Positions 3,115-49,220 of a stretch of DNA of 64,000 bases are shown piece after piece (within the stretch, counting starts at the first letter, position 1; each line of letters begins with the position of its first letter). The notes under the pieces are model-generated. The model saw nothing but the letters and a program-made list of their open reading frames with translations. It made no database searches and was not told the origin of the DNA. The translations under genes and the position numbers were made by a program. The DNA comes from Antedon mediterranea. Taxonomy: Eukaryota > Echinodermata > Crinoidea > Comatulida > Antedonidae. The stretch lies in assembly GCF_964355755.1 (NCBI RefSeq), contig NC_092680.1, positions 12,873,001-12,937,000 on the forward strand, written 5' to 3'.

Positions 3115-3274
3115 TGTGCCCATATATGGACATGATGATGTCATATCACTACCATATTTGGGCATATCACTACCATATTTGGGCACATCACTACCATATT
3201 TATTTTTATTTATTTTATTTGGGCACATCACACTTTTTTTGTCAAACTAGTTTGATAGTGTAGACAGAGCTTTA
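3092..3274. mobile_element. MITE family 1, copy 2, left end missing
   Basis: The element enters at TTATGTGACAAAATAATGTG without the outer left arm. The right arm (GTTTGATAGTGTAGACAGAGC) is complete. The reading frame of the MDC1-like gene runs into it and stops at its TGA (3112-3114). The core includes an extra T-rich expansion near 3200-3215. Confidence 0.8.
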
Positions 3275-26045: not shown

Positions 26046-26155
26046 GTTGTCCACACCTTATGGTGATCACTGTGTTACCTGGACAGTCTCTGTGCCGAGT
26101 TGTGTGCACCTTAGGGTTATCACTGCGTTACCTGGACAGTCTCTGCGCTGTTATC
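26046..26155. repeat. duplication of the NF-YC stop-codon region
   Basis: Two copies of about 50 bases contain GTTACCTGGACAGTCTCTG preceded by ATCACTG. The right copy (26105-26155) contains the coding end and TGA of NF-YC. The left copy lies in the 3' UTR. Confidence 0.65.
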
Positions 26156-29100
26156 GGTTGTTGTAGGTTGCAGAAACACCTGTTGCGTCGTACCAGCTTG
26201 TGTTTGTATTGGTAGTTGTTGTATTTGAAATACAGGCTGTGAGATAAAAAAAAACAAATATAATTATATATACATTTGTATAAATTATAGATTCATTTGA
26301 AATTGCCAACTGGAAACAATTAAAAACAGTTACTGTGCTATATGCTCGTCAGATCACAAGCTGGGCCCTGATAGTCACTTGTATCATTTGTATTTATTTA
26401 TATAGTTATCACATCGTATTATTTATTCTACTCAGGTACAAAACATATCTCGAAATTGTTAACAATTTTGACAATAAAGTTATCTTGTATCTTGTATCTT
26501 GTAAATTTCTGGGAGTTTCTAGAGTTGTATAGACAGCAAGTGATATGGAATAATGGTAAGGGGCCTGACTAGCATGCGAGAATCATTGGTTCAAGCTTGT
26601 CTGTGCCACAAGATGCTTTATTTTCGTTTCGATAAGACTGGCTGCCTTAGAGTGTCCAATCAGAATTTTCTCAGTTTCCAGTTATGCATGAGGACGACTA
26701 TAATTTCATACAATACATGTTTATAAGGCACACTTATATACCTGTGATCCTGATATCTCATACAATACATGTTTATAAGGCACACTTATATACCTGTGAT
26801 CCTGATATCTCATACAATACATGTTTATAAGGCACACTTATATACCTGTGATCCTGATATTTCATACAATACATGTTTATAAGGCACACTTATATACCTG
26901 TGATCCTGATATCTCATACAATACATGTTTATAAGGCACACTTATATACCTGTGATCCTGATATCTCATACAATACATGTTTATAAGGCACACTTATATA
27001 CCTGTGATCCTGATATTTCATACAATACATGTTTATAAGGCACACTTATATACCTGTGATCCTGATATCTCATACATTACATGTTTATAAGGCACACTTA
27101 TATACCTGTGATCCTGATATTTCATACAATACATGTTTATAAGGCACACTTATATACCTGTGATCCTGATATCTCATACAATACATGTTTATAAGGCACA
27201 CTTATATACCTGTGATCCTGATATCTCATACAATACATGTTTATAAGGCACACTTATATACCTGTGATCCTGATATATCATACAATACATGTTTATAAGG
27301 CACACTTATATACCTGTGATCCTGATATCTCAGCAGTAACAAACTGTTGGCCTGCCTGTCTAAGGTACTGGATTGGTTGAGTCCCAAACACCTAAAGTTG
27401 TACAAAAAAAACAACATGTTAGCAAGTAATAGAGAAGTAATGCTACTAGGATTAGAAATTAATGAATTTGATGTCAGTGAATGTGGTAAAAATGATAGAA
27501 ACACAATGACAACGATAATAACTTGACAATTAGAAATATGATAGATGAACATGATAATGATACTGTGTATGTTTAAGCATGTATGTGGTTGTACTATGTA
27601 ATCAGTAATGTTGGAATGGTTTCACTGTAACTATACAGTGACAATGTTGATGACGAAACTGAAACTATGACAATAATGGTGATAATAAAGTGAAAAATAT
27701 GACAATATATTTTAAATACAACCATTTACAAAAACAGTAAAATTACACTTGGAAGAACAGAATTGCAAAGTAAATATCATAAACAATTCACAAATTTAAC
27801 TCACACAAAAACAATCTATTTAAAATGGTTAATTAATTAGGTTAAAAAGGGAAAATATACCATAATTTATATAACAAAGTTATGAAGAATATGAAGTGGT
27901 CATGAATGTGATAGTGCTTACACAGCAAACAAAGAAAAGTTACAGGTGGCAATACTATGCAAATGAGCACAAATGCTTCATTTACATATGTCATCAGCCA
28001 CCTGTCTTTACCAGTTATCTGTGAACCCACACCTGCACATCCCCGGAATTGCTTACAATCTGTGCGGCATTTTGCGATCCGTCCGGCTGTTGTAACTGGA
28101 TGGTCTGACCAGCAGCTGTTTGTACTAGCTGTGCTGGCTGTCCGTCAGCTGTCTGTATTAATTGTGTTGTTGTACCGTCTGCTTGTACCAGTTGAGTTGT
28201 CTGATTATCACCACCAGCCTATAAATAAAATATACAGTTATATTACATAGCCTATGTAAAAACGTGAACGCGATTGGTTGAAACTGCATCACATGACTAC
28301 CGCTGCGAGGATCGTAAATTGTATATATCCTCGAGTACGATGATATTGACTGAGTAATTTTCGTATGATTATCGTGTCCCTGTCATTAAACACTTCGGGA
28401 AATATATTCCCTCGAGCAAAATATCATTCCCTCAGGGATGTCAAATCTTATATTTCACCTCTAAGCAGGCAATATCTGTATAATAGTTGCAGCACCAAAG
28501 TTGTTTTTTATTTATGAGATTGTGGTTCGATTCCAACGCTCGCCACATTGGTTGTATCCTTACGCAAGGCACTTTACTTACATTTGCCTCTCTCCGCCCA
28601 GGTGTATAAAGGGTACCCAGTTAGCTCAAGACACAACTCAAACACTAGCTGCATTATGGGAGTATGTTTCCATACATGTTTGATTAAAAAAAAATCTGGG
28701 GTAATAATGTGCAGTTGATTGAGAGCTTATATGCACTATATAAGAATGAACTATTTATTATTACTAAAGTTTATCTCTGTTAGAACAAAGTAAAATTATA
28801 TTTAAAAACCTGTTGTTGCTGTTGAGCCTGTGATTGGTTCACTATTTGCTGTAGTTGCTGGGCAGCACCTGACGGTATGCTAATGAACTGAAATTTAAAT
28901 AAATAAATACATTATACAAATTAACCATAAGAAAACAATACATGAATATCACTGCCCAATTATACAGTAGTACCAAAGAACTAGAAATTGAAACTTTGAT
29001 ACAAAGAAAAACTATAATTAAACAATACTACTATCTTTACAAATACTTGATAATGCAGTTAGTTATATAGTTTTATATAACACCTAAATAAATTCCTGTC

Positions 29101-32100
29101 ATTTGATTGGACGAATGTGGGTCACATGGCGTGCAATAGTACGTACTATTAAACGATCGTTTAATAGTACTTTTTTAAACATTTTGTGTACGAAAAAAAA
29201 AACGTTTCGCGGATGAAAAAAAATTTAGAATACAAAAATTACTGTAAAATACAACAGCGCCAGCTGTCGTCCTGCCTCTGTTGTTTGTAAACACCACCGC
29301 AAGATATGCAACAGCAGCAGATTTTTGTGTACGATTTGGAGATATATATGTACTAATTTCATTCAAAAAAGCATTTAAATTAGCTTTAGATCGTTTTTAG
29401 GATTTTGATTAATTAATGGGGACATCCCTACAAGACGTGGAATTGTTGGAAAAACCATAATTAGCCAAGATAAGTTCCAATTGTCTGTCGAAGTTTTGCC
29501 TTTCAGCCTATCTAGTACTACTACTACTAGGCCTAGCCTAGCTAGGCCTGTTAGTATTAGGCTAGGCCTGGCCTAGGCGTTTTTAGCCTTGCTAGGCCTA
29601 TGATTGTTTGGTCGTTTGTTGACATAATTAACACTAAAGTAGGTGTGTTTAGAAAATCCATATAATTATAACATTTAATATAAAATTAAATGTTACGGTT
29701 TTAATCAATCTGAATGAAATATAGGCCTCTTGGCTAGGGCCACCTTATATTTGATTCAAATGACAGGAATCTATTTAGATGTTATATAAAACAAATAATG
29801 AATGTTTTGTATTCGTGTAATGGTACAAATAATGGCACTTGGTGAATGATGAAAGGTTATATCAACTCGGCTTTGCCTCGTTGATATAACCTTTCATCAT
29901 TCACCTCGTGCCATTATTTGTACCATTACACTCATAAACATTCATTATTTGTATAATATCAAATATTTATTTATTTTCATTATATTTAGGTGCTTGGTTT
30001 ACTTGCAACCTGTCAACCTTACTTCTTGTGTCTACATTGTTTACTTGTTGTTTTTTTTAATATTTAGGCACATTGCCAAGGATAACCATAAGTGAATTCA
30101 TTCACTATCCTTCTTAAAGGTGGCAATCCTGTTCACAAGACAAACATACACAAGATGCTCTACATAAACAAAAAAGACTTATTTCTAGTCTAGTTGAAAA
30201 TTGGCATTAGAAAAAATCTTGACATATGGCAGGACTTGAGCCTAGGACCCTTGGATTGGCCATCATAACCACCAAGCCACAGCTCCATTTCCATTGAATG
30301 ATTTGAAAGCCATTGGATACTAAAAGACAATACTTGGTATACTGTACCTGTTGGCCTTGTGTTACATTAGCAACCTGTATCGTCTGTGCCGTTGTTTGTT
30401 GTTGTTGCTGTGTCTGTTGCTGAGCACCCTGTCTAAGTTGTTGTTGAACGGCTTGGTTCTGAGCAAGTTGGAAGTAATATTGCACCTGGTCCGGACACAT
30501 TCCTGTCTGTTGAACATGTGTTTCCTAAAACAAGGTTTTAATTTTATTTCAACTTATCTATAGAGGGTGACCCTAAACAGCGTATGCTGACAATCAAGGG
30601 GCCCCTTGAAGAGTTATGATAAGTGTCTGTGTGTGACAGTGGCTGTGTGTATACTACACCGGCGTAACTATACTACTCGTCTCGTTTTTTTACTATTTTA
30701 TATTTCAGGTATTCATTTATTGTGCTTGTTTATTTTTTCATTTTTCTTTAATCAATGTCTCTTTCTAGAAGAAATAAATTAAATGGAAATAGTAGATGGT
30801 AGTTGTTACTGGCACCCTACCTGTCTCTTTGTTGGCTTTAGTTCATCTCTCGGCACTATGTCTATTAGAAAATCAAACTGGTCATATTTTGAGATCGCCA
30901 TTGCAATATCATTTCTCTGAAATTATACAGTATCATATTTTATTTATTGCCACGCAAAGAAATAGCACTATTTGTGGTGCATTTATCACTATTGAAATGA
31001 TCAATTAAGTAGTTTACTTAAGTACTTATCCAAAACTTACTTGTAAAGTCCTTCGTTTATTTTCCTCCGTGTGCAACCATGCACGAAGTGACAACTCACT
31101 TATGAATATCTCGGCCGCTTTTGAGAAGAGTACAGGAGCCTCAGCACTGATCATCTACAGTAGTAAATTAAATTATGATATTTGATGTAAAGTACTCTCT
31201 CAATTTATTCATTACATAATCAGGCCTTGTGTTTTAAAAATTATAGGTGTGCTACAAATTGCACTCCTCAATACATTCAGGGATGCTGTAGGTGTGCTGT
31301 TTGTATTTTGGTGTGTAGAAGTTTACTAAATTTAAGCTCAAGAGTATTTTAGGAGTGTTAGGTGAGTGATCACACTCGCCTTAAAAGACAAGGCCTGCAT
31401 GTTTTTTTTTGTTAAACTTGACAATTACAAATGGAAAATCCAAACAAGGTTTAGGTAGAAGGCGCTGTATTGGCGGCCGTCAGAAAAATTAGTGAGCACT
31501 AAGCCAAATAAAACCAAATGAAAATATTACAAACCTTCACATCTTCATCTAGTTTCATAATTTTCTTTATTCTTGCCAAAGGCAGTTCCTGTGTTTTGAA
31601 ATGAGACTAAAAAAAAAAAAAAAAAAACTTGACTTCAATATTAAAATATACCGTATATTTCGGTGTATAAGTCGCACTTTTGACACGCAAATTTGACCTC
31701 TAAATTAAGGGTGCGTCTTATACACCGAACATAAATGCCTCACCACAAAGATTGTACATATCGTCACCTCGTTCGCTAGGCCTGAGTAGGCTAGGCCTAG
31801 CTACAGTATACTAACGTAACAGCAACCTGCTTCTGCCTAGTTTTCAAGGCATTTTAGCATGATGTTATACTAAATTATGATGAAAAGATTTGTTCATTAT
31901 GGAGCTGCTGTTTTAGGCGCTCCGATAAAATTTCATTTGTAAACGTTTACGATTGGAATAGGCTAGTATTTATTTATAGTTATACGCACGATCGCCGACC
32001 GCCGTACCCCCAGCGCAAGCCCTTCTCCAGGTGATTATAGCATGGACCTAGCGTACACACTTCTCGGATACATGGATACTAATCGAATACGATTGTCCGT

Positions 32101-37401: not shown

Positions 37402-40400
37402 CTAGGGTTCATATGCTGGTGGCTTCTCCCATTTTTCCATTTCTACAACCTCTTCATAGGCAGGTGGCTTTGGAATCAGTGCCTAGAATAAGACAAAATA
37501 CTTATGTTAGAATGAGACAAAATACTTAAAATGAGACAAAATATTTAAGTCAAACTGAGACAAAATATTTGAGTTACAGTAATATAACACAACGTTCTTG
37601 ATACATAAGAGAACAGAAGTCAAAAACGGTTACCAAATATGATTACATAACGTAGCCATTTTACAACTGAAATTGCAATAATACCATAAGTATGGAATAA
37701 AAAACCGATAAATTGTCCTTAAATTAATTATAAGTACACAGACTAAATGAATATATCATCAAACAGAGCCCATTTATAGTTGTAAAATAAACCCAAGAAC
37801 TTTTACGCTGATTTGTTAAAATAATTTACCTCCATGTCATCTGTAACATAACCTCCTGTAGGTGAGAATTCTACAGCTGCAATGTATTTATAACAAGCCC
37901 ACACACAAGATATGCAGTATCCCTGTGAACACAAAACAACTATTATAAGTAGAAAGACAGCACAAGAAAGTAAACTAAATGATTTTTGTCACACAAATGA
38001 TGATCTTTGACCTCTCTGCGACCTTAATTTGTGCCGTGTACAAGAAATTGGCTTAAAAATATATGTTATAAAAATATTATATTATATAATACAATTGTAG
38101 TTTATGGGCAGTTATCTGTCCCTTTTAGGAGCTTTAAGGCTTTTAAGACAAGAAATAACCTGGTTTAAAGTTATTTATATGCATTATATTTACAAAACGT
38201 CAACATTTGCAGGTCTAGTGTCTTTAAAATCTACAGTAAGGTAGAAATAGGAAGTCAACCATTCGATCTCTTAAAACTAATATTCTATTAAAACATCCCT
38301 TTAACAGTTTCAACACAATAGCACAATGCACCAACTAGACAATGTGTAACTATTGAGTCTAACAATTGATGTGTTTATAGGATGGGTAGCAAGCCTGTAT
38401 TGTGTAAGGCACTATCTACACTATCAAACTTTATGTGACAAAAAAATGTGATGTGCCCATGATGATGTCATATCACCAGCATATTTTTAAGCATATCAAT
38501 GCTATATTTATGCACATAACACTTTTTTTTGTCAAACTTGATAGTGTAGACAGAGCCTAATGGCTTGTGATAAGTTCGCAACAAATAGCATCGCAACAAA
38601 ACACAAACCTTAAAGACCATGATAATCATGAAGACAATAACAGCAATAGCCATGAATCCTGGACCATCTAGGTCATAGTTTGACACTGGTAACTGTTCTT
38701 TCCAATGCATAAATTCCTGGTTGTATGGAAATTGTGCCTAGATTAACAAAAGATATAAGAAATGAAGAATGTGTAACATGTATGCACACAGGGATATCAT
38801 TATTAGAAATTTCTAAAGCTCTGTCTACACTATCAAATTTATGTGACAAAAAAACGTGATGTGCCCATATATACACATGATTGAAAATGTTCATCTGGTT
38901 TGTAGTAACAAGTTATTTGAAATGTTCTTTTTTTCAAACCAACAATTAGTAAACTAACCTAATGACAGTTTCGCTGTCCTTATCTGAAACTGTCAAGGTT
39001 AGTTTACTAATTGTTGGTTTGAAAAAAGAACATTTAAAATAAATGATGATGTCATATCACTACCATATTTAGGCACATCAAACTTTTTTGTCAAACCAGT
39101 TTGATATTGTAGACAGAGCTTAAGATGTCTAAATGTCCAAGACAATGCCATGATTTTAATTGCGTGGAAAGCTAACCTAAAGCTTTCACCTAGAATGTTT
39201 TTAAAACTTATCTCAGACCCAATTGAATGTAAATGATTGATATCAAAAGTTACAAAATACCGCTTCTATTGGTGCAAATTTGTATCAATAAATGTTATGT
39301 ACTACTACAATTTTAACCCAAAAAAAAGAGTATATATACTGCACTACTGAACAACTGTTTTTTGTGCAGTTAATATAGTACTGTAGAATACAGTTAACAG
39401 TACTTACACGGTCTTTGTATCTGGATAGTAGGAAAGGACACCAACCGCAGTTAAACACGAGACAAAGAACAATACTTACACTGTCTTTATAATCAGTATC
39501 TGGATAGTAGGAAAGGACACCAATCGCAGTTAAACACGAGACAAAGAACAATACTTACACTGTCTTTATAATCAGTATCTGGATAGTAGGAAAGGACACC
39601 AATCGCAGTTAAACACGAGACAAAGAACAATACTTACACTGTCTTTATAATCAGTATCTGGATAGTAGGAAAGGACACCAATCGCAGTTAAACACGAGAC
39701 AAAGAACAATACTTACACTGTCTTTATAATCAGTATCTGGATAGTAGGAAAGGACACCAATCGCAGTTAAACACGAGACAAAGAACAATACTTACACTGT
39801 CTTTATAATCAGTATCTGGATAGTAGGAAAGGACACCAATCGCAGTTAAACACGAGACAAAGAACAATACTTACACTGTCTTTATAATCAGTATCTGGAT
39901 AGTAGGAAAGGACACCAATCGCAGTTAAACACGAGACAAAGAAGTCAAATTGCATCAAACAGAAGAAAGGCAGCAAGTAACTGGAACGGTACTGAAAACA
40001 AAGGATAACAAGTAGAAATTATTGTATTATAATTATATTTCATTTTGTAATTTATTTATGCTTACTCTATGTTCCATTTTAATTTCATAAATAATATTGA
40101 TTTACTTTTGTTAATGCTCTGTCTACACTATCAAAATGTGATGTGGCCAAATATGGTCATGATGATGTCATATAACTACCATATATGGGCACAATTTTTT
40201 ATCACATGAAGTTTGATAGTTTAGACAGAACTTAAGACAATTCCTACTTTATTATTTAATGTAAATACCTAGTCCAAAATAAATGTGTTCAGACGTAAGA
40301 TTATACATGAAATTTTTAGCACAAATCAAAATGTGATCTATGAATGACTACAATGAATTTAAGTAGAAATAACCTTTTTAAGTAATTACTCAACATTATT

Positions 40401-46908: not shown

Positions 46909-47072
46909 TTACCAGTACAAATAAAAACAAACAAGAAATATTTATTTGGAGCCAACTATTTAGTATACAAATTTTCTTTTTTAAATGAAAATCATTTTAT
47001 ATTTATATATTGTGCAAACAAATCAAAATAAATTAAACTTGGTAAAGTATAAATGTGTAGGTTTTTGTTTGT

Positions 47073-49110
47073 ATATGTAACCCGTTGACGCTTGTTTGTA
47101 TATGTAACCCGTTGACGCTTGTTTGTATATGTAACCCGTTGACGCTTGTTTGTATATGTACCTTGTTGACGCTTGTTTGTATATGTAACCCGTTGACGCT
47201 TGTTTGTATATGTACTCTGTTGACGCTTGTTTGTATATGTAACCTGTTGACGTTTGTTTGTATATGTAACCTGTTGACGCTTGTTTGTATATGTAACCCG
47301 TTGACGCTTGTTTGTATATGTAACCCGTTGACGCTTGTTTGTATATGTACTCTGTTGACGCTTGTTTGTATATGTAACCTGTTGACGTTTGTTTGTATAT
47401 GTAACCTGTTGACGCTTGTTTGTATATGTAACCCGTTGACGCTTGTTTGTATATGTAACCCGTTGACGCTTGTTTGTATATGTACCCGTTGACGCTTGTT
47501 TGTATATGTACCCTGTTGACACTTGTTTGTATATGTACTCTGTTGACGCTTGTTTGTATATGTACTCTGTTGACGCTTGTTTGTATATGTAACCCGTTGA
47601 CGCTTGTTTGTATATGTAACCCGTTGACGCTTGTTTGTATATGTACCCTGTTGACGCTTGTTTGTATATGTACCCCGTTGACACTTGTTTGTATATGTAC
47701 CCTGTTGACGCTTGTTTGTATATGTACCCGTTGACGCTTGTTTGTATATGTACCCCGTTGACGCTTGTTTGTATATGTAACCCGTTGACGCTTGTTTGTA
47801 TATGTACCCTGTTGACGCTTGTTTGTATATGTACCCTGTTGACGCTTGTTTGTATATGTAACCTGTTGACGCTTGTTTGTATATGTAACCCGTTGACGCT
47901 TGTTTGTATATGTAACCCGTTGACGCTTGTTTGTATATGTACCCTGTTGACGCTTGTTTGTATATGTAACCTGTTGACGCTTGTTTGTATATGTACCCTG
48001 TTGACGCTTGTTTGTATATGTAACCCGTTGACGCTTGTTTGTATATGTAACCCGTTGACGCTTGTTTGTATATGTACCCTGTTGACGCTTGTTTGTATAT
48101 GTAACCCGTTGACGCTTGTTTGTATATGTAACCCGTTGACGCTTGTTTGTATATGTACCCTGTTGACGCTTGTTTGTATATGTAACCTGTTGACGCTTGT
48201 TTGTATATGTACCCTGTTGACGCTTGTTTGTATATGTACCCTGTTGACGCTTGTTTGTATATGTAACCTGTTGACGCTTGTTTGTATATGTACCCTGTTG
48301 ACGCTTGTTTGTATATGTAACCTGTTCACACTTGTTTGTATATGTACCCTGTTCACACTTGTTTGTATATGTACCCTGTTGACGCTTGTTTGTATATGTA
48401 CCCCGTTGACGCTTGTTTGTATATGTACCCCGTTGACGCTTGTTTGTATATGTACTCTGTTGACGCTTGTTTGTATATGTAACCCGTTGACGCTTGTTTG
48501 TATATGTACCCTGTTGACGCTTGTTTGTATATGTACCCCGTTGACGCTTGTTTGTATATGTACCCCGTTGACGCTTGTTTGTATATGTACCCCGTTGACG
48601 CTTGTTTGTATATGTAACCTGTTGACGCTTGTTTGTATATGTACCCTGTTGACGCTTGTTTGTATATGTACCCTGTTGACGCTTGTTTGTATATGTACCC
48701 CGTTGACGCTTGTTTGTATATGTACCCTGTTGACGCTTGTTTGTATATGTACTCTGTTGACGCTTGTTTGTATATGTAACCCGTTGACACTTGTTTGTAT
48801 ATGTACCCTGTTGACGTTTGTTTGTATATGTAACCCGTTGACGCTTGTTTGTATATGTACCCTGTTGACGCTTGTTTGTATATGTACTCTGTTGACACTT
48901 GTTTGTATATGTAACCTCTTGACGCTTGTTTGTATATGTAACCCGTTGACGCTTGTTTGTATATGTAACCCGTTGACGCTTGTTTGTATATGTACCCTGT
49001 TGATGCTTGTTTGTATATGTAACCTGTTGACGCTTGTTTGTATATGTACCCTGTTGACGCTTGTTTGTATATGTAACCCGTTGACGCTTGTTTGTATATG
49101 TACCCTGTTG
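47073..49110. repeat. 27-bp minisatellite, about 75 units
   Basis: The unit is GACGCTTGTTTGTATATGTA followed by a variable ACCCGTT, ACCTGTT, CCCTGTT, CCCCGTT or CTCTGTT. A few units are 26 bases and shift the register. Because 27 is a multiple of three and the unit lacks stops, long open frames arise on both strands. They begin and end in unrelated flanking sequence and are not supported as genes. The array starts about 165 bases after the NME6 stop and lies between the convergent NME6 and TPR genes. Confidence 0.95.
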
Positions 49111-49220
49111 ACACATATCATATCATTTATTTCGCCAATATACAGAACAGTACAAAAAAAAAAAAAACAATACAAAAGTAAGTCAATGAGGCTTGTTTGT
49201 ATATGTACCCTGTTGACACA
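49111..49220. repeat. insertion separating the last minisatellite unit
   Basis: After TGTTGACACA the array is interrupted by about 75 bases (ATATCATTTATTTCGCCAAT and an A run). One more unit follows at about 49187-49220, also ending TGTTGACACA. This could be a small insertion with a TTGACACA target duplication. Confidence 0.5.

Follow-up and report, generated by a model that had tools for sequence, protein, structure and literature searches.

Tandem repeats that span an exon-intron boundary have been described in amphioxus, where they were named 'mirages' in Adh3 and were also found in troponin C, in the globins BflGb6 and BflGb9 and in PGBD5 (PMC3087553, PMC3902484). Their units, of 10-160 bp, lie at 5' or 3' splice sites and many of them retain the AG or GT, and splicing was reported to be normal and undisturbed (PMC3087553, PMC3902484). 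The amphioxus arrays also differ in copy number between haplotypes (PMC3087553). In human genes, the minisatellite of G1P3/IFI6 (6-16) is described as having multiple splice donor sites in a report of 1995, as far as its citation conveys (Nucleic Acids Res 1995, cited in PMC2572611), and genes of segmental duplications carry variable internal tandem repeats at exon-intron boundaries that alter gene structure and for which intron gain has been proposed (PMC2812944).

The array described here, which lies in the gene of an essential transcription factor, NF-YC, belongs to this already known kind, the boundary-spanning minisatellite. Like those of the amphioxus mirages, its units take in the end of an exon and the adjoining intron (18 nt and 34 nt, in 12 units), and the splice signal CAG|GTATAT is kept in all 12 of them. 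The recurrence of such arrays in several genes of one genome (a Mtp/LAPTM4-like gene, two myosin loci and two kinesins) is another shared trait. Unlike the amphioxus cases, the array has a host that is, to judge by Hox cluster and chromosome number, probably a crinoid and not amphioxus, and several loci have 11-21 near-identical copies. In amphioxus, tests covered haplotype variation and normal splicing. For the NF-YC array, variation of copy number between individuals, as expected in the initial annotation, is plausible; the paralogous myosin genes of this genome do vary (1, 2, 3 and 8 copies), and amphioxus arrays do so between haplotypes (PMC3087553). New here are the probable crinoid host, the presence of several loci in the same genome and a copy-number series among paralogs. 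It was less expected that one non-amphioxus genome should have this many such loci, long acceptor arrays among them.

With regard to the host, a cluster of Hox genes on C2 (7.83-8.21 Mb) contains 12 genes with an ambulacrarian posterior set, in which two posterior genes face each other, and it includes Hox4- and Hox6-like members (assigned by position and homeodomain reading). A feather star with 12 Hox genes and face-to-face posterior genes, unlike hemichordates, has been described (PMC7351957). Eleven large contigs account for nearly all of the assembly, and Antedon has 2n=22; on these grounds a crinoid is likely and amphioxus unlikely. Searches for lancelet GFP and for the GFP family found neither, a weak negative as they had no positive control, and a COX1 search aimed at the mitochondrial sequence had no hit.

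The window, that is, the whole stretch of 64,000 nt analysed, carries the NF-YC gene on its minus strand. The gene model has eight exons with GT-AG introns, every length being divisible by three. The upstream exons lie within 28033-31606 (31606-31535, 31154-31041, 30916-30821, 30524-30348, 28887-28810 and 28218-28033) and are followed by the array-bearing exon of 78 nt and 26 codons (27314-27391; acceptor TACAACTTTAG|GTG; phase 0 at both ends), the 3' end of which is array unit 1. The last coding exon (26120-26236) encodes 38 residues (PVFQIQQ...VQVTQ). An upstream first coding exon is likely to exist near 32.9 kb, and the array exon would then be number 8, as it was numbered in the initial annotation. 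The identity of the gene, assigned initially from the letters of the window, was borne out by its histone fold, which matches the human NF-YC crystal chains (4awl_C, E-value 4e-43) and the Pfam family CBFD_NFYB_HMF, and a protein search of the genome detected NF-YC at one locus only. The last exon (...VQVTQ*) showed a weak resemblance (E-value 0.18) to the human NF-YC C-terminus, QLYQIQQVTMPAG.

Tandem Repeats Finder (TRF) placed the array at 26706-27332 (minus strand) with a period of 52, 12.1 copies, a 98% match and a score of 1219, and unit-by-unit reading resolved 12 full units as assembled, arranged head to tail from 27331 down to 26708. Each unit of 52 consists of 18 nt of exon end, GTATAT and 28 nt of intron, and unit 1 holds the terminal 18 nt of the 78-nt exon; both methods thus confirmed the anatomy proposed in the initial annotation, namely an exon end, its donor CAG|GTATAT and 28 intron bases repeated in 12 units. 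Eight of the 12 units are identical; in the remaining four, unit position 3 is A or T instead of G, and position 47 differs once (T/A). The nonamer is the same in all. The first, exon-side donor (27308-27316, donor G at 27313 in plus numbering) keeps the frame into the last exon. It is followed every 52 bp by eleven redundant donors (26736-27264), with their G at 27261, 27209, 27157, 27105, 27053, 27001, 26949, 26897, 26845, 26793 and 26741. Both the reading frame and the similarity to human NF-YC pick up again only past the first donor, and they point to it as the putative authentic site; the same choice made from the sequence at the outset is in this way sustained.

Such an array cannot have arisen by chance. 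It was found at a single site when the assembly (354 Mb) was searched, and the same search detected no second genomic copy that could represent an alternative allele. At unit position 3, units 3-5, units 8-10 and the last two units (11-12) together with the flank all read G-G-A, a repetition that suggests block duplication. The sequences TGAGAT, on the exon side, and TGAAAT, on the far flank, have TGA in common. Every unit also contains an AG without a preceding pyrimidine tract (AAACATGTATTGTATGAGATATCAG), so that the repeated splice sites are 5' sites only; a microexon or a recursive splice site in each unit was ruled out on this ground.

Read-through from any of the eleven downstream donors gives VYKCAL followed by a stop, as all transcripts that skip the first donor meet the same TAA (27293-27295, minus strand), which ends 21 nt past that donor. 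The final 38 residues (PVFQIQQ...VQVTQ) would be lost as a result. The truncation predicted in the initial annotation is therefore correct as to the VYKCAL-stop from every later donor, but the loss is confined to the last 38 residues and does not extend to the whole Gln-rich region. Measured to the exon junction, the stop is 31 nt upstream when donor 2 is used and 83-551 nt upstream with donors 3-12; by the usual 50-55 nt rule, the product of donor 2 would escape nonsense-mediated decay (NMD) and those of donors 3-12 would not. Like the minisatellite of human G1P3/IFI6, within what the cited account of that gene conveys, the NF-YC array could supply several splice donors to one transcript. The IFI6 unit is 12 bp, the frame is kept and several donors are used. 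The NF-YC unit, unlike that of IFI6, is 52 bp (1 mod 3) and shifts the frame, with TAA after the first donor. It also differs from a poison exon in that its units have no acceptor of their own and so do not form a separate cassette exon.

Several simple reasons why the first donor would or would not be preferred were considered. Donors 2-5 would make exons of 130-286 nt, within the normal size range, and exon definition alone cannot rule them out. The U1 pairing of CAG|GTATAT is -7.2 kcal/mol and the other NF-YC donors range from -5.6 to -11.2, so that an explanation by weak donors was rejected, the site being mid-range for this gene. Masking or sequestration of the donors by hairpins was likewise rejected, since a unit, a double unit and the whole array folded no better than shuffled sequences (z 0.47, -0.30 and 0.44, respectively). 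In minigenes that offer several equally strong, identical sites, splicing often prefers the intron-proximal donor; on that rule the wrong site would be used here, which counts against the exon-side choice.

A second donor-spanning array of the window is located in the Mtp/LAPTM4-like gene (39417-39943, minus strand; 79 bp x 6.7 by TRF). Its unit comprises the terminal 69 nt of an exon (...SCLTAIGVLSYYPDTDYKDS), the donor AGT|GTAAGT and 10 nt, and six units are identical, with the strong donor GTAAGT in each. Outside the window, a myosin gene on C7 (L100 and L039, about 203960-205180) presents 21 donors ACG|GTTAGT at an exact spacing of 58 bp after the exon end HFAGAVCYQT. Among the myosin paralogs of C3, ten genes have a single copy of the donor ATGAATCAA|GTAAGT (or a point variant), L053 has two copies, L054 three and L060 eight, at a spacing of 82-83 bp. 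This series of 1, 2, 3 and 8 copies indicates that extra copies come and go. The expansion of a boundary minisatellite in recent paralogs, as in this family, resembles the repeats of human segmental duplications, from which it differs in that the duplicated boundary sits inside an existing intron (PMC2812944). The myosin-motor paralogs make up a large family (L051-L065) on one chromosome (C3, 19.6-25.1 Mb), and in many of them a 49-bp array is also present, roughly 1 kb upstream from the exon that was matched.

Acceptors are repeated in two kinesin genes. In L073, 11 identical 50-bp units, each ending GTGTTACAG|CCTGC, precede a kinesin motor exon (L073 1615-2166, C7:436514-437065; acceptors TTATTGTGTTACAG|CCTGC). 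In L067, about 20 acceptors in 70-bp units precede another motor exon (L067 about 1390-2923, C5:31793989-31795522); the outermost copy, on the exon side, is diverged relative to the inner ones and encodes the conserved kinesin segment GSERQSKTGA. Boundary arrays thus recur across unrelated genes, at donors and at acceptors, and none of their unit lengths (52, 79, 58, 83/82, 50 and 70) is a multiple of three.

Further tandem repeats were observed in the window. On the plus strand, a 204-bp x 2.3 tandem duplication (43-496) encloses a whole short exon (VPPRSSARKSKRKAQIEEEEESETPENKQ) with its acceptor and donor and is an exon duplication, not a boundary array. On the minus strand, a 27-bp x 76 array (47065-49112) has one minus-strand frame open over long stretches as (RQQGTYTNK)n. 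The 21-bp motif CATATCACTACCATATTTGGG, in about 2-4 copies each time, occurs at 3142, 15348, 24463, 32714 and 63240 of the window and at many other loci, and it is probably part of an interspersed element.

The frequency of boundary arrays was estimated on a sample of 105 kinesin exons picked irrespective of repeats; the myosin and Mtp arrays, which had been met in passing, were left out. Two of these exons (1.9%, with a wide error) bear such an array, and a tentative extrapolation from this share of about 2% would give perhaps thousands of exons with boundary arrays in the genome. Placement was examined by permutation at the exon-dense kinesin loci, where no excess of boundary crossing was detected among 3-11 arrays (2 observed versus 3.6, 2.4 or 1.2 expected at three stringencies). 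Targeting of boundaries was unsupported in a permutation with only this many arrays, and the arrays seem to form irrespective of boundaries. Across four donor arrays, no change was present in 423 donor positions. Selection for keeping the redundant donors intact was nevertheless not significant (about 0.28, weighted by distinct variant sites, with 9 elsewhere), and the same absence of changes does not show free decay either.

We consider it probable that the NF-YC array is a neutral minisatellite across an exon-intron boundary, a 'mirage', tolerated since splicing picks the exon-side site. Its origin may have been the duplication of a short stretch over the 5' splice site, with slippage or template switching at the 3-bp TGA microhomology as the probable mechanism, after which the array would have grown by blocks of units through slippage or unequal exchange. 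A tandem duplication of the boundary would keep the exon and the original donor whole on the exon side, and this would make it tolerable. If the spliceosome takes the acceptor of the 78-nt exon and the donor nearest to it as the limits of that exon, a normal NF-YC mRNA would result, while the eleven surplus donors would sit within the intron and be mostly ignored. Any leakage would yield a C-terminally truncated NF-YC from donor 2 and, judging by the distances, transcripts from donors 3-12 that would probably be NMD targets. With a single NF-YC locus detected in the genome, normal NF-YC transcripts are presumably needed. A tolerated mutational by-product also fits the presence of like structures at both kinds of splice site in unrelated genes, with no constraint of frame or folding. 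The broader proposal that boundary-spanning minisatellites occur genome-wide in this animal and that splicing reliably takes the exon-side site, at donors and acceptors alike, is put forward tentatively, as somewhat less than an even chance.

Since the nonamer and the U1 pairing energy (-7.2 kcal/mol) are equal for all donors, it could be argued that the downstream ones are used to an appreciable and unregulated extent. Donor 2 would then produce a stable NF-YC that lacks the last 38 residues and ends in VYKCAL, and donors 3-12 would feed NMD, with longer alleles lowering NF-YC output, as the stop distances (31 nt versus 83-551 nt) would allow. However, NF-YC is apparently single-copy and strong leakage should be harmful, and the amphioxus counterparts were reported to be free of splicing disturbance (PMC3087553, PMC3902484); we therefore regard a leaky array as unlikely. 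Still less credit can be given to a selected device, that is, an array serving as a poison-exon-like rheostat for the level or the C-terminus of NF-YC. This kind of control had been suggested in the initial annotation, and the intact state of all 12 donors and the one and the same short stop-containing tail obtained from every downstream donor would agree with it. Against this, unrelated genes have arrays of like kind, at donor as well as acceptor sites and with no constraint of frame or fold, 10 of 13 myosin paralogs have no extra donor copies, a structural signal was absent when folds were compared with shuffles, and the placement in the kinesin sample was not above random expectation. Poison-exon-like control was in consequence left unsupported, and we hold a regulatory role to be very improbable.

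Near-identical units are hard to count, and an array mis-assembled or wrong in length had to be weighed too. The variants that distinguish units follow a phased pattern across them, and comparable arrays occur at several unrelated loci, with graded copy numbers in paralogs, all of which makes an artefact highly improbable. An error in the copy number of the NF-YC array is possible, but its absence is not likely.

Beyond this gene, rows of identical splice sites offer a clean natural test of the way in which the spliceosome decides among equal sites: scanning and intron-proximal rules predict one site and exon definition another. With arrays in this genome that repeat donors 2 to 21 times and acceptors 11 and about 20 times, the rules of site choice would be testable at many loci with one long-read RNA data set, and the myosin paralog series (1, 2, 3 and 8 copies) shows how arrays grow. 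If boundary arrays are indeed genome-wide, this animal would naturally provide a set of identical splice sites with position as their only difference. These results suggest that 'mirages' are not restricted to cephalochordates.
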